The notes beneath the pieces were generated by a model that was not told where the DNA came from, did no database searches, and saw only the letters and a list, made by a program, of their open reading frames with translations. A stretch of 39,462 nucleotides of DNA from positions 1 through 39,462 of the IMG/VR virus record IMGVR_UViG_3300025289_000060; one strand, 5' to 3'. This document shows positions 6,046 through 11,570 of the stretch, piece by piece (the first letter of the stretch is position 1; the number at the start of each line of letters is the position of its first letter). Source of the DNA: a virus. A program made the position numbers and the translations under genes.

Positions 6046-6079
6046 CAGACCTCCTCTGACATTTGTCAGAGGAGGTCTG
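6046..6079. terminator. 15-bp perfect hairpin, probable terminator
   Basis: The arm 6046-6060 pairs perfectly with 6065-6079 around the four-base loop ATTT. It lies nine bases after the stop of the secreted protein and before the helicase gene. No long T tract follows (TCATTCCC), so it may be an intrinsic terminator without a strong U run, an RNase barrier, or a protein-binding palindrome. Within the 5' arm GTCAGA and TCTGAC can pair on their own, allowing an alternative smaller hairpin. Confidence 0.6.
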
Positions 6080-6101
6080 TCATTCCCAGAAGGACCCTTT
6101 A

Positions 6102-7436
6102 GTGGATCTTTATCCTTTCCAGAAGGATGCCCTGACCTTCCTCGACGAAGCAGGAGGACGAGGCATCCTTGGTGACGAGATGGGGCTGGGCAAGACGGTC
6201 GAGGCGTTGGCTTGGGCCAGGACCAAGCCGGATATCAAGCGCGCCCTGATTATCTGCCCAGCCTCAGTTCTCTACAAGTGGCAGGACGAATGCAAGCGAT
6301 GGTGGGGGAAGCCGTCCGAAGTTATCGTAACTTCCAAGGACCCGATCGGCTACTGCCCCGTCACCATTATGACCTACGGCATCCTGACCAACCGAGTCCT
6401 GGAACTGGTCGGGAAGGTGTGGGATCTTGTCATTATTGACGAGTTTCATTATGTAAAGTCCTACAAGGCCAAACGAACGATCGCCGTCCAGGCGGTTGCC
6501 GCGGGAATTCGATACATCCTGCTCCTGTCCGGTACGCCCATGCTGAACCGCCCAATGGAATTGTTCAACGGGCTGAACATGATCAACAAGAAGGTGTGGG
6601 GTAGCCCTTTCGCATTTGGCCATCGCTACGCCGGCGGCCTGACTGATCGGGGCTGGTTCCAAGGATCATCCAATGAGGGGGAACTCCAGCGCCGCCTCCG
6701 GCCCTACATGATCCGCCGCCTGAAGACCGAGGTGCTAGCTCAGTTGCCGGAGCTTCGACGTATCTATGTCCCTATTGACATACCCAACATGAAGGAGTAC
6801 AAGCAGGTAAGAGCACAGGTCCGGGCCGCCCTCAAGGAATTCGACCCCACACACAAGGGCTACTTCGTCAACGCCCTAGACAAGCTCAATGCCCTGCGCA
6901 GGGTCGTTGGGATAGGTAAGAGCACGGTTGCGATCGAGTGGGCGGAAGAGTTCCTATCCCAGACCGAAAGTAAGTTGGTCATCTTCGTCCACCACAAAGA
7001 GAACATGGACACGATCCAGAAGGCCCTGCACGAAAAGTACGGGGTCACTACCATATCAGGGGAGACCCCGGCCCGGTTCCGCTCAGATAGGATCGGCACG
7101 TTCCAACATCCCGGCCGGCCCCGTGTCATGATCGTCACCATGGCAGGGGGCGAGGGCATCGACCTGTTCGGGCTAAATGGGGTGGACTCCAGCACTCTGC
7201 TCATGGTAGAGCGAGAATGGAACCCGGCCCGAGAAGAGCAGATGGAGGCCCGGCTGCATCGCTTGGGTCAAAGATCTGCGGTCAATGCATACTACCTTTC
7301 AGCACGACGAACCGTGGACGACAAGTTCTACCACCTGGTCGAAGCCAAACGGGAGATCCTCAAGCGTATCATCGGGGCCGATGTTCCAACTACCCTGGTC
7401 AAAGACCTGATTGAGTCTCTGGAGATTGATACTTGA
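6102..7436 (+). CDS. SNF2-family DEAD-like helicase/translocase
   Basis: 444 residues from GTG 6102, chosen because AGAAGGA lies seven bases upstream and the domain starts immediately (LYPFQKDAL); the longer TTG start at 6063 would begin inside the terminator hairpin. Helicase motifs in order: GDEMGLGKT at 24-32 (Walker A), ICPASVLYKW, DEFH at 113-116 (Walker B), LSGTP at 142-146, MAGGEGIDLF (motif V) and EARLHRLGQRS (motif VI). This is the Swi2/Snf2 layout, closest in size to SMARCAL1-like minimal translocases. It probably remodels DNA-protein complexes or forks during phage replication. Confidence 0.88.
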   Translation: MDLYPFQKDALTFLDEAGGRGILGDEMGLGKTVEALAWARTKPDIKRALIICPASVLYKWQDECKRWWGKPSEVIVTSKDPIGYCPVTIMTYGILTNRVLELVGKVWDLVIIDEFHYVKSYKAKRTIAVQAVAAGIRYILLLSGTPMLNRPMELFNGLNMINKKVWGSPFAFGHRYAGGLTDRGWFQGSSNEGELQRRLRPYMIRRLKTEVLAQLPELRRIYVPIDIPNMKEYKQVRAQVRAALKEFDPTHKGYFVNALDKLNALRRVVGIGKSTVAIEWAEEFLSQTESKLVIFVHHKENMDTIQKALHEKYGVTTISGETPARFRSDRIGTFQHPGRPRVMIVTMAGGEGIDLFGLNGVDSSTLLMVEREWNPAREEQMEARLHRLGQRSAVNAYYLSARRTVDDKFYHLVEAKREILKRIIGADVPTTLVKDLIESLEIDT

Positions 7437-7460
7437 CAACCCGGAAAGTCGTGGTAACAT
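7433..7460 (+). promoter_or_regulatory. Sigma70-type promoter for the tRNA-like module
   Basis: TTGACA (7433-7438), 16-base spacer, TAACAT (7455-7460). The -35 is a perfect consensus and the -10 matches four of six. Predicted start is near 7467, within a base or two of the first TGGCGGG module, so the transcript would begin with that structure. The -35 overlaps the stop codon of the helicase gene. Confidence 0.6.
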
Positions 7461-7465
7461 GATGA

Positions 7466-7583
7466 TGGCGGGCGGCGTGAATATAGGACACGCAAAGGGT
7501 GAAGGGGCATGGGCCGGAGATGCGGCGCGAGAGCGTGACAGCGGTGGAGCCAGCCTAGAGCCGGTGCAAGTCCGGCCCCGCCA
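7466..7583 (+). ncRNA. tRNA-like structured RNA, module A
   Basis: TGGCGGG (7466-7472) pairs with CCCGCCA (7577-7583), a 7-bp end stem. Two bases later GCGTG/CACGC (7475-7479 with 7489-7493) forms a D-arm-like hairpin whose 9-base loop contains GG. At the 3' side GCCGG/CCGGC (7560-7564 with 7572-7576) encloses a 7-base loop and abuts the end stem directly, as a T-arm does. The middle, about 66 bases, is too long for a simple anticodon plus variable arm; it holds a GCGC-GAGA-GCGT hairpin. A promoter sits just upstream. It is not a normal tRNA: the T-loop lacks TTC and position 8 is C. No coding signal with a ribosome site is present. Confidence 0.5.
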
Positions 7584-7604
7584 ACTGACTGGGACAAGCC
7601 TGCG

Positions 7605-7790
7605 ATGCGCCTAGCATTCATGTTCGGACGAGGCTTTGTTGGCCTCGATAGCCCGACGGGCAGAAGCCGAATAGGCCTCCGCGTGGTAAATATCGGGGAC
7701 CGAACCGACCCAGACGGGGCGCTGAGAGCAGGCAAATTTACAACGGCTGTGAAGATGGCACTTTCGGTGAAGATGGCGGGCGGCGTGTGA
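7605..7790 (+). CDS. Doubtful small ORF between modules A and B
   Basis: 61 codons starting ATGCGCCTAGCATTC, without a convincing ribosome site. It ends in TGATG overlap with the HNH gene, which would allow coupling. Its last codons read through an 11-base direct repeat GTGAAGATGGC (7749-7759 and 7767-7777) and the 5' end of module B, giving VKMALSVKMAGGV. I recognise no family and regard it as likely non-coding; it is listed because nothing else accounts for 7584-7773. Confidence 0.2.
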   Translation: MRLAFMFGRGFVGLDSPTGRSRIGLRVVNIGDRTDPDGALRAGKFTTAVKMALSVKMAGGV

Positions 7791-8146
7791 TGAAACGATG
7801 TCCATCGTGTGATACCTACAGGCCAGAATCTGATTTCCATAGAGATGCATCCAGATCAGATGGCCTGGATTGGCGGTGCAAGCGATGTAAGTATGAAAGG
7901 GAAACCGCCAGGGCTCGGCGGGAAAGAGACGCCAGGCGCTATGCTAAAGACGCACGCCGGCCCCTTGCCAGATCGGCGGCAAAGGCTAAATGGGGCAGCC
8001 CCTTGAGCCATTCATGCTCTATCCTAGGATGTCAAAAGCAAGCCGAGGAATGGCATCATCTGAACTACAATCATGCGCTTGTTGTACTTCCTTTGTGCCG
8101 GGAACATCACACAATCGAGCGCGAACAGTAGCGCCCGGCCCCGCCA
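7774..8146 (+). mobile_element. Module B: same ends as modules A and C, interior replaced by an HNH gene
   Basis: The element starts TGGCGGGCGGCGTG (7774-7787), identical to the first 14 bases of module A, and ends CCCGGCCCCGCCAACTGACT (8135-8154), matching the 3' end of A and most of C. TGGCGGG and CCCGCCA form the same 7-bp end stem. The HNH ORF fills the interior almost exactly: its ATG is at base 17 and its stop is 4 bases before the conserved 3' segment. This looks like an endonuclease gene lodged in, or carried by, a structured RNA element. The mechanism is inference. Confidence 0.5.
7790..8131 (+). CDS. HNH endonuclease, homing-type
   Basis: 113 residues from ATG 7790 (an in-frame GTG lies one codon upstream). 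No strong SD is visible; translation may depend on the TGATG overlap with the upstream ORF. An N-terminal zinc ribbon uses CPSC at 4-7 and CKRC at 30-33, then a very basic helical region, then the HNH core: C76...C81, EWHHLNYNH at 87-95 and LPLCREHH at 100-107. His-His-Asn with Cys/His zinc ligands fits phage HNH nucleases that nick or cut DNA to spread themselves. It lacks a RuvC domain, so it is not IscB or IsrB. It is housed inside module B. Confidence 0.8.
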   Translation: MKRCPSCDTYRPESDFHRDASRSDGLDWRCKRCKYERETARARRERDARRYAKDARRPLARSAAKAKWGSPLSHSCSILGCQKQAEEWHHLNYNHALVVLPLCREHHTIEREQ

Positions 8147-8206
8147 ACTGACTAGGGTGCCCCTCCATGTGGTGCGCACGTCCCAGACACCACCGGAGAT
8201 GCACAA

Positions 8207-8315
8207 TGGCGGGCGGCCAATCCTGCGGGAACGGCCTATACGGGCAGATAACAGATAGCCGTAATGGAGCCTGCAACTGCCGACAACGAGCCGGGAGGAA
8301 GCCCGGCCCCCGCCA
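8207..8315 (+). ncRNA. tRNA-like structured RNA, module C, in the leader of the next gene
   Basis: TGGCGGG (8207-8213) pairs with CCCGCCA (8309-8315) as in modules A and B. A D-arm-like GGCC/GGCC stem (8215-8218 with 8233-8236) has a GGG-containing loop; the 3' hairpin GCCGGG/CCCGGC (8290-8295 with 8302-8307) sits one base from the end stem. GGCAG (8243-8247) can pair with CTGCC (8277-8281) to close the middle. Its sequence differs from A except at the ends and stems, which suggests conserved structure. It ends 20 bases before the next ATG, so it may regulate that gene. Confidence 0.45.
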
Positions 8316-8335
8316 ACTAACGAAGGAGAAGCACA

Positions 8336-8602: not shown

Positions 8603-8609
8603 CCCGCGA

Positions 8610-8690
8610 GCTTCCCCGCCCGCGACAAGGTGATGGCCGCATAGATGCCTGGGACTGAGGTCATCAACCCAGGCTTGGCGGCGGGGAGGC
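8610..8690 (+). ncRNA. Structured intergenic RNA (11-bp outer helix plus inner hairpin)
   Basis: Bases 8610-8620 pair with 8680-8690 over 11 consecutive pairs, one of them G-T. Inside, GCCTGGG (8647-8653) pairs perfectly with CCCAGGC (8668-8674) around a 14-base loop. The element fills the gap between two genes and ends 19 bases before the next ATG, with the SD (AAGGAGG) outside it. No T tract follows, so it is more like a leader or mRNA-stability structure than a terminator. No known riboswitch class recognised. Confidence 0.5.
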
Positions 8691-9218: not shown

Positions 9219-9514
9219 CCTTCAAACCCATCACCTACGAGACCTATGGGAAGACAGAGACCTGGGGCGTAGACTATGAGAACAACCTTGTCCTCACCCC
9301 AGGGGGGAATGTCCTTCCCGTGTCGGGCCTTATTGAATGGCTCCGGCATATCACTCACACGAATGATCTTTACTCTGAGCGACTCCAACGTGTGCGGCTC
9401 CTAGTAGGACCGGAGCAGCGGGCGTTGATTGAAAAGGACTGGGGTGAACGATGTAGAAGCGAGGCCGCAAGGCTTAGATCACAAGACACAGATAAGGAGA
9501 ACATAGATGCGTAA
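9215..9514 (+). CDS. Hypothetical protein, 99 aa
   Basis: ATG 9215 was chosen because GAGGAG lies eight bases upstream and the start overlaps the preceding stop (ATGA); ATG 9209 is too close to that site. The N-terminal half is probably beta-rich (TWGVDYENNLVLTPGG), the C-terminal half a charged helix (LYSERLQRVRLLVG to the end). No family recognised. Ends 8 bases inside the next gene. Confidence 0.65.
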   Translation: MTFKPITYETYGKTETWGVDYENNLVLTPGGNVLPVSGLIEWLRHITHTNDLYSERLQRVRLLVGPEQRALIEKDWGERCRSEAARLRSQDTDKENIDA

Positions 9515-10320: not shown

Positions 10321-10662
10321 ATGAACGTGGAAGGGTTCGTACCAGATTACACACCGGGCGTCGATACAAAGTGTGATATGTGCTTCGGAACAGGGGAAGC
10401 ACAGACCTACGTCACGGAAGACGGCGAACAGATTTGGGGAACAACCGATGTCAATTGGGAACTACCGGAGGGTGCTAAGATCGCTGAGGTTCTTTGTAGA
10501 ACCTGTGGTGGGACGGGTATCATGCCAGAGACTTTGAAGCCCGGTTACTGGCAACAGCGGATTGAGGAGTGCAAAAAGGGCAACAACCCTCTAAACGTTC
10601 TCAAGATGGCCATCAACCCTCTAAACGTTCTCAGGATAGCCATCAAAGCCATCGTTGGTTAG
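10321..10662 (+). CDS. DnaJ-type zinc-finger protein, 113 aa
   Basis: AGGAGG upstream. Two CxxCxGTG units (CDMCFGTG near residues 19-26 and CRTCGGTG near 60-67) match the zinc-binding repeats of the DnaJ Cys-rich domain, without a J domain. Such stand-alone modules are frequent small phage proteins. The C-terminus ends with NPLNVLKMAI followed by NPLNVLRIAI, the product of a 30-base tandem duplication. Upstream of the RNA ligase gene by 11 bases. Confidence 0.7.
   Translation: MNVEGFVPDYTPGVDTKCDMCFGTGEAQTYVTEDGEQIWGTTDVNWELPEGAKIAEVLCRTCGGTGIMPETLKPGYWQQRIEECKKGNNPLNVLKMAINPLNVLRIAIKAIVG
10584..10643 (+). repeat. Two tandem 30-base repeats inside a gene
   Basis: 10584-10613 and 10614-10643 differ at only two positions and stay in frame, duplicating ten residues (NPLNVLKMAI / NPLNVLRIAI) at the C-terminus of the zinc-finger protein. 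Looks like a recent slippage or unequal-crossover event. Confidence 0.85.
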
Positions 10663-10673
10663 TAGGAGGAACC

Positions 10674-11570
10674 ATGCATATCAGTTCGTATGCTACGGTG
10701 TACGCCCTGGGACACAAAGCTATTTTGGACATCTTCTCCAGTTCAGTAGTGGTGCAGGAGAAGATCGACGGCTCCCAGTTTAGTATGGCCAGGACAGAAT
10801 CAGGAGAACTGGTCTGCCGCTCCAAGTCCGCCGAGATCCAGATAGACGAGCCGGAGAAGATGTTCAAGAATGCCGTCGATACGGCCAAGTCACTTGATCT
10901 TCGTCCGGGCTGGGTCTACCGCTGTGAGTATCTAAGTAAGCCAAAACACAACACACTGGCGTACGATCGTACGCCCAACAAGTACCTAATCGTCTTCGAC
11001 ATAGACACCGGGACGGAAAGCTACGTATCGCAGGGGGGCCTGGCCCTTGAGTGCGAGAGGTTGGGCTTGGAATACGTCCCACTATTCTATGAGGGCAAGA
11101 TTACGGGAATGGCTGACCTGGACACATTCCTTGATCAGGTATCCGTCCTCGGGGGCTCCAAGATCGAGGGCGTCGTCGTCAAGAACTACGACCAATTCAC
11201 CCCAGAGAAGAAGGTGGCGATGGGGAAGTTTGTCTCCGAGCGGTTCAAAGAGATCCACAACGCCGACTGGAAGGAACGCAATCCATCTACCAAGGACATC
11301 GTTACCCGTATCGTAGACAAATACCGCTCGGAAGCCCGCTGGGAAAAAGCTATTCAGCACCTCCGCGACGTCGGGAACCTGACTGAATCTCCCAAGGACA
11401 TTGGGGCGCTTATCAAGGCAGTTCCAGAAGACATCCTGACGGAATGTGCAGATGAGATCATGGAAGCCCTATTCACCCACATTTGGCCGGACATTCGGCG
11501 TGGGGTGACCCGAGGGCTTCCCGAATGGTACAAACGAAAACTAGCAGAGACTTCCTTCCCGACTGGGTAA
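10674..11570 (+). CDS. RNA ligase, Rnl2-like
   Basis: 298 residues from ATG 10674, which has AGGAGG six bases upstream; a longer in-frame start would overlap the previous gene. Nucleotidyltransferase motifs are visible: QEKIDGS at 28-34 with K30 the likely AMP-accepting lysine, YRCEYLSKPKHNTLAY (motif III region), LIVFDID (IIIa-like), EGVVVK at 165-170 (motif IV) and KKVAMGKF (motif V region). The C-terminal ~100 helical residues fit the extra domain of Rnl2/DraRnl-type enzymes. In T4, RNA ligase repairs cleaved tRNA during infection; that role here is inference. Confidence 0.8.
   Translation: MHISSYATVYALGHKAILDIFSSSVVVQEKIDGSQFSMARTESGELVCRSKSAEIQIDEPEKMFKNAVDTAKSLDLRPGWVYRCEYLSKPKHNTLAYDRTPNKYLIVFDIDTGTESYVSQGGLALECERLGLEYVPLFYEGKITGMADLDTFLDQVSVLGGSKIEGVVVKNYDQFTPEKKVAMGKFVSERFKEIHNADWKERNPSTKDIVTRIVDKYRSEARWEKAIQHLRDVGNLTESPKDIGALIKAVPEDILTECADEIMEALFTHIWPDIRRGVTRGLPEWYKRKLAETSFPTG

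Follow-up and report, generated by a model that had tools for sequence, protein, structure and literature searches.

A candidate structured-RNA element in a tailed phage with an HNH gene nested in one of its copies

Among described systems, HEARO, the OMEGA RNA of IscB/IsrB, resembles the locus reported here in being a structured RNA with an associated HNH-domain ORF. HEARO ORFs contain RuvC and HNH domains together with many zinc ribbons (PMC9755519), whereas the ORF of this locus is 113 aa long, is endonuclease VII-like and has no RuvC match, and the locus has no Rfam HEARO match. Group I introns with a nested homing endonuclease offer a second likeness, an HNH gene in a variable part with the core stems left unbroken. 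However, there is no Intron_gpI match up to an E value of 5 and no detectable catalytic core, a 12.7-bit group II fragment falls far below cut-off, no interrupted gene or coding exons are seen around the module, and the module itself is far too small. The ESAS/SAS repeats of cluster K mycobacteriophages likewise lie upstream of start codons and consist of inverted repeats with a variable spacer (PMC3203893). In ESAS, 17-bp repeats are separated by 4-13 bp (PMC3203893); the module described here differs in having a 7-bp stem, an interior of about 100 nt with hairpins, and no 13-bp SAS. Its GCCGGUGCAAGUCCGGC hairpin resembles one of the conserved hairpins of the twister-sister ribozyme. That candidate was rejected, since its model scores 16.2 bits where 34 bits are required (E 0.5-2.3) and the alignment covers only positions 15-64 of its 81. 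Also set aside, on searches and on their known motifs, were FMN, cobalamin, group I, hammerhead, HDV and tmRNA. As the original prediction required, no Rfam family accounts for the element: none of the 4227 tested reaches its gathering threshold in the window or at the homologous locus L099.

A repeated module with a nested HNH gene

The window, the whole stretch of DNA analysed, is an IMG/VR virus record, linear and 39,462 bases long, from a tailed phage that encodes an SNF2-like helicase (6063-7436), an RNA ligase, a DnaB-like helicase, a family A polymerase, a methyltransferase and a UvsX-like recombinase. The nearest helicases among named phages, those of Rhodothermus phage RM378 and Thermus phages, are 30-33% identical, so the lineage is poorly sampled. 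The phage helicase is closest to those of thermophile phages, and the RNA ligase (10569-11570; Pfam RNA_ligase, E 1e-14) might serve in mending cut RNA or have some other bearing on the RNA elements. Beyond the helicase gene, a module, M, occurs three times and alternates with a second conserved element, X, in the order M_A-X1-M_B(HNH)-X2-M_C-X3(remnant)-P0003. The features are as follows.

7433..7460, + strand: sigma-70-like promoter TTGACA-16-TAACAT, 10/12 consensus positions, a consensus match only
7466..7583, + strand: M_A; end stem P1 7466-7472/7577-7583; hairpin H1 7475-7479/7489-7493 with loop AATATAGGA; variable middle; hairpin H4 7560-7564/7572-7576
7583..7772, + strand: X1; AACTGACTGGG (a), GCCTG 7598-7602 (b), GCGCC 7607-7611 (c), long variable insert, CCCAGAC 7709-7715 (a'), GGCGC 7718-7722 (c'), CAGGC 7729-7733 (b')
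7774..8146, + strand: M_B; usual 5' and 3' ends, P1 7774-7780/8140-8146, possible H4 8097-8102/8134-8139; HNH ORF in place of the middle
7790..8131, + strand: P0001, HNH/endonuclease VII-like ORF of 113 aa with an N-terminal zinc ribbon
8146..8205, + strand: X2; AACTGACTAGGG ... CTCC ... ATGTG-GTGCG-CACGT ... CCCAGAC 8182-8188 ... GGAG-AT-GCAC; compact, with other b and c stems
8207..8315, + strand: M_C; P1 8207-8213/8309-8315; first hairpin GGCC/GGCC; H4 GCCGGG-AGGAAG-CCCGGC
8316..8335, + strand: X3 remnant, AACTAACG-AAGGAGAAGCACA with the ribosome-binding site of P0003
8336..8602, + strand: downstream gene P0003, 88 aa, without family match, phage-like codon usage

The three pairs of ends, predicted at 7466/7583, 7774/8146 and 8207/8315 with one shared 7-bp stem, TGGCGGG/CCCGCCA (P1), are borne out and lie far beyond chance by shuffling. 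The 5' end ATGGCGGGCGGC is exact at 7465, 7773 and 8206 and is found nowhere else in the window, while the 3' end CCGGCCCCGCCAACTGACT stands at 7572 and 8135, with a diverged copy at 8303-8325; zero are expected in 100 shuffles even with 3 mismatches. M_A and M_B have 20 nt of the 5' end and 22 nt of the 3' end in common (95% each), and M_C retains 12 nt of the 5' end next to its diverged 3' end. The middles differ among all three copies. Likeness extends beyond the ends to the hairpin directly 5' of the 3' strand, GCCGG-UGCAAGU-CCGGC in M_A, where the loop UGCAAGU is T-loop-like, and the H4 of M_C. In M_B, a corresponding pairing of GCCGGG with CCCGGC is possible (p about 0.016), and since the GCCGGG partner sits in the last codons of the HNH ORF it may be due to chance. 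Measured against shuffles, the folding energy of M_A is not significant (z between -0.3 and -1.0), and that of M_C is moderate (z between -1.7 and -2.2). The right boundary falls at the exact end of P1, beyond which M_A and M_C run into X and the L099 copy into unrelated sequence. Just 5' of M_B (window 7750-7785), GTGAAGATGGC is present as a tandem duplicate with an 18-nt period.

P0001 matches PHROG families 1035, 2340 and 2255 (E 1e-9 to 5e-9), which identifies it by profile as an HNH/endonuclease VII-like nuclease; in Pfam only a zinc ribbon is seen, below cut-off. Its start and stop each lie within a few bases of the conserved 5' and 3' segments of M_B; the gene fills the variable slot exactly. 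With a GC3 of 0.50 against 0.72 in the phage helicase and polymerase, and a codon score of -19 bits against positive scores for phage genes, P0001 has foreign codon usage and looks acquired.

The element X that follows modules M_A and M_B includes the motif ACTGACT. Its paired segments are a (CUGGG/CCCAG), b (GCCUG/CAGGC) and c (GCGCC/GGCGC), in the interleaved order of an H-type pseudoknot, which is the fold we predict. X2 keeps this plan with GUGC/GCAC and CUCC/GGAG, although shuffles match the nested stems in 3.8% of trials, a marginal result, and one G is possibly common to a and b, so that b may have 3 pairs. The end of the X3 remnant repeats the end of X2, giving a 16-nt direct repeat (8195-8210/8325-8340, 15/16 bases) that flanks M_C.

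A homologous copy in a second contig

Modules homologous to M were anticipated elsewhere and were found in one contig. A search of all IMG/VR contigs with TGGCGGGCGGCN{78,108}GGCCCCGCCA gives four matches, three of which (L096-L098) arise by chance within Gly/Ala-rich coding sequence. The true fourth copy, L099, lies on the - strand at 1862-1763 of IMGVR_UViG_3300025087_000255, within G002. Three stretches of M_A recur in M_L099, namely TGGCGGGCGGCGTG, the CGTG..GGACACG hairpin and GCCGGT..CAAGYCCGGCCCCGCCA, with little likeness in between. M_L099 retains the P1 end stem, the first hairpin and the hairpin before the 3' strand, while the middle is unrelated. Across the stem columns, 32/33 positions are identical between M_A and M_L099, the sole change turning a G-C pair into G-U, compared with 23/49 in the middle plus 17 gaps. 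M_L099 is predicted to fold as a closed P1 with four hairpins, cloverleaf-like (z -3.96; 0/200 shuffles as good).

The locus order in L099 is X-M. X_L099, AACTGACTGGGCCAAGCCTGTGAGGCGCCT..CGACCCAGACGGGCGCTGTGGGCAGGCAAAA, sits 5' of M, and the same segment order recurs 3' of M_A with a longer insert. The segment plan of X1 is thus also present in L099: a, b and c are in common, the inserts are unrelated, and there is a one-base shift. X2, 3' of M_B, follows the segment order of X_L099 but has other helix sequences. The two contigs also have other coding genes in common and are partly related. A further intergenic, noncoding element, D, is conserved in both phages at window 8609-8689 (z -3.1) and at L100, 14441-14508 of G002; it consists of GCTTCCCCGCYCGCGACAA, a variable hairpin and CTTGGCGGCGGGGAGGC, and has no Rfam match. 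Another match to its pattern, L111, was rejected as a chance match in coding sequence.

No copy of the window HNH gene is present in M_L099 or detectable in its contig. Instead, X-M lies between an upstream gene for an HNH_3 protein with a DNA-binding domain and a downstream gene for a T5orf172/GIY-YIG-like protein. Dependence of the element on the window HNH gene, a part of the original prediction, is not borne out by a relative that sits beside other endonuclease genes, although the placement of M/X next to such genes in two contigs is suggestive, short of proof, of dependence on a nuclease. Between M_L099 and the T5orf172-like gene lie about 267 nt without a gene (1762-1496, - strand) that are strongly folded (z -2.9), have no Rfam match and represent a possible further structured RNA. 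Within the HNH_3 gene (about 2552-2535, - strand), TGGCGGGCGGCC/TGGCGGGCGGCCGAATCCT resembles the start of M_C, probably by chance.

The M/X element is known from these two contigs only. Single-protein searches with the helicase, polymerase and HNH gene yield one near-identical contig, G001, whose polymerase is 97% identical and which starts at window position 9396 and so misses the M/X locus, and in addition a 42% zinc-ribbon match. A helicase profile search gives 80 loci (best 37% identity), with no further modules by simple end patterns or, in a subset of the loci, by an RNA model. Scanning the genome collection for X gives nine matches, none with both convincing structure and a module. No convincing homolog is found among named phages or plasmids, and none in 299 genomes of one phylum (weak evidence); these negatives indicate that the element is rare there, no more.

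RNA, DNA or protein

Comparison of the copies supports M as one family that behaves like structured RNA and matches no known RNA family. The segments able to pair are the conserved ones, and the hairpins occur at fixed places. Covariation in the end stem was sought and is absent: P1 is invariant in sequence in all four copies, and the H4 stems are nearly so, in a sample of two contigs that is too small for covariation. Of the suggestion that an HNH gene is lodged in a structured RNA with solo copies, the single family, the HNH gene in the variable slot of one copy and the structured-RNA-like behaviour are supported. We rank RNA first and a DNA element second.

That same invariance makes a DNA-level element with terminal inverted repeats (TGGCGGG..CGGC/GCCGG..CCCGCCA) a serious rival, if an unlikely one. 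M would be a small non-autonomous insertion, M_B its gene-carrying version, and the HNH or another enzyme would move it. The ends, including the unpaired flanking A and CGGC, never vary among the four copies on two contigs, the inverted repeat marks the edge of the element, the near-perfect direct repeat lies on either side of M_C, and GTGAAGATGGC is doubled 5' of M_B. However, a constant target duplication is missing, with none at all around L099 or M_A, and the direct repeat at M_C can also be explained by homologous ends of X2 and X3. The internal H1 and H4 are also conserved as hairpins, X has an RNA-like pattern of its own, and HNH enzymes are not known to mobilize inverted-repeat elements on their own. 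It is decidedly improbable that M and X make up a new kind of mobile element, transferred at RNA or DNA level through its P1-bounded ends, in which the HNH protein is the element's own nuclease and the copies M_A, M_C and M_L099 are its non-autonomous forms.

We consider it just as improbable that A and C are small genes (MAGG...RPRQLT and MAGG...GPRQLT) within a tightly packed operon whose genes overlap at their starts and stops. Here A, C and L099 all have an open ATG frame, codon scores are +6.4 bits in A and +3.9 in C, P0004 over X1 scores +10, and ORFs overlap by a few bases; the phage-like codon scores of the small frames in M_A and X1 count against the RNA reading. Yet the middles lack similarity, the M_B frame is broken after five codons, and the conserved stretches show no synonymous changes between the phages (ATGGCGGGCGGCGTG and CCGGCCCCGCCA are identical). 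Indels between copies, 1 base in X and 2 in the H4 region of A versus C, are not in threes, which argues against protein constraint. It is highly improbable that M is the decayed remains of a phage tRNA or tRNA-like decoy into which an HNH gene moved, as such genes do in phage tRNA clusters. In favour of this, M_A fits once in the window a strict descriptor that asks for an acceptor of 7 bp, a D-arm whose loop has GG and a T-arm that follows the T-loop consensus (UGCAAGU in M_A), and M_L099 folds as a cloverleaf. The descriptor, written after seeing M_A, matches 53 times among 16,249 shuffled windows, a rate of about 0.003 each. However, ARAGORN at its default score reports neither a tRNA nor a tmRNA, whether or not introns are allowed, M has no anticodon arm, CCA or U8, and the T-loop is lost in C and L099. 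The tRNA-likeness of M_A is accordingly treated as a resemblance of fold and not as membership.

Proposed arrangement and meaning

On balance we lean towards M and X as the two parts of a phage structured-RNA element in a leader or intercistronic region, one M of which was later invaded by a free-standing gene of the HNH homing type. M would be an RNA of about 100-120 nt closed by P1, with the H1 hairpin, a variable middle and H4 adjoining P1; X would be a pseudoknot, 60-190 nt long, that ends just 5' of an ATG. The promoter-like site ends a few bases 5' of the M_A end stem, so that a transcript, predicted to start near 7467 within the first bases of M_A, would begin with P1 and carry M-X, M-X and M-X(remnant) at its start. 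X2 and X3 end on ribosome-binding sites, and the GGAG of X2 lies inside a predicted helix. Together with the promoter-like site, this makes a leader the simplest role, one that would protect the start of the transcript and adjust translation; most likely, the leader and intercistronic structures would either give such protection or regulate how the following gene is translated. The HNH gene would have landed later, through a putative homing activity, in the middle of the second M, a slot tolerant of insertion, leaving P1 and H4 unbroken.

The locus thus presents a phage element that has had no name and is probably an RNA, in part a pseudoknot and in part cloverleaf-like. An HNH gene enclosed by the ends of such an element is rare outside introns. 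Should the element prove mobile, it would offer a testable system for the joint travel of small nucleases and structured sequences.
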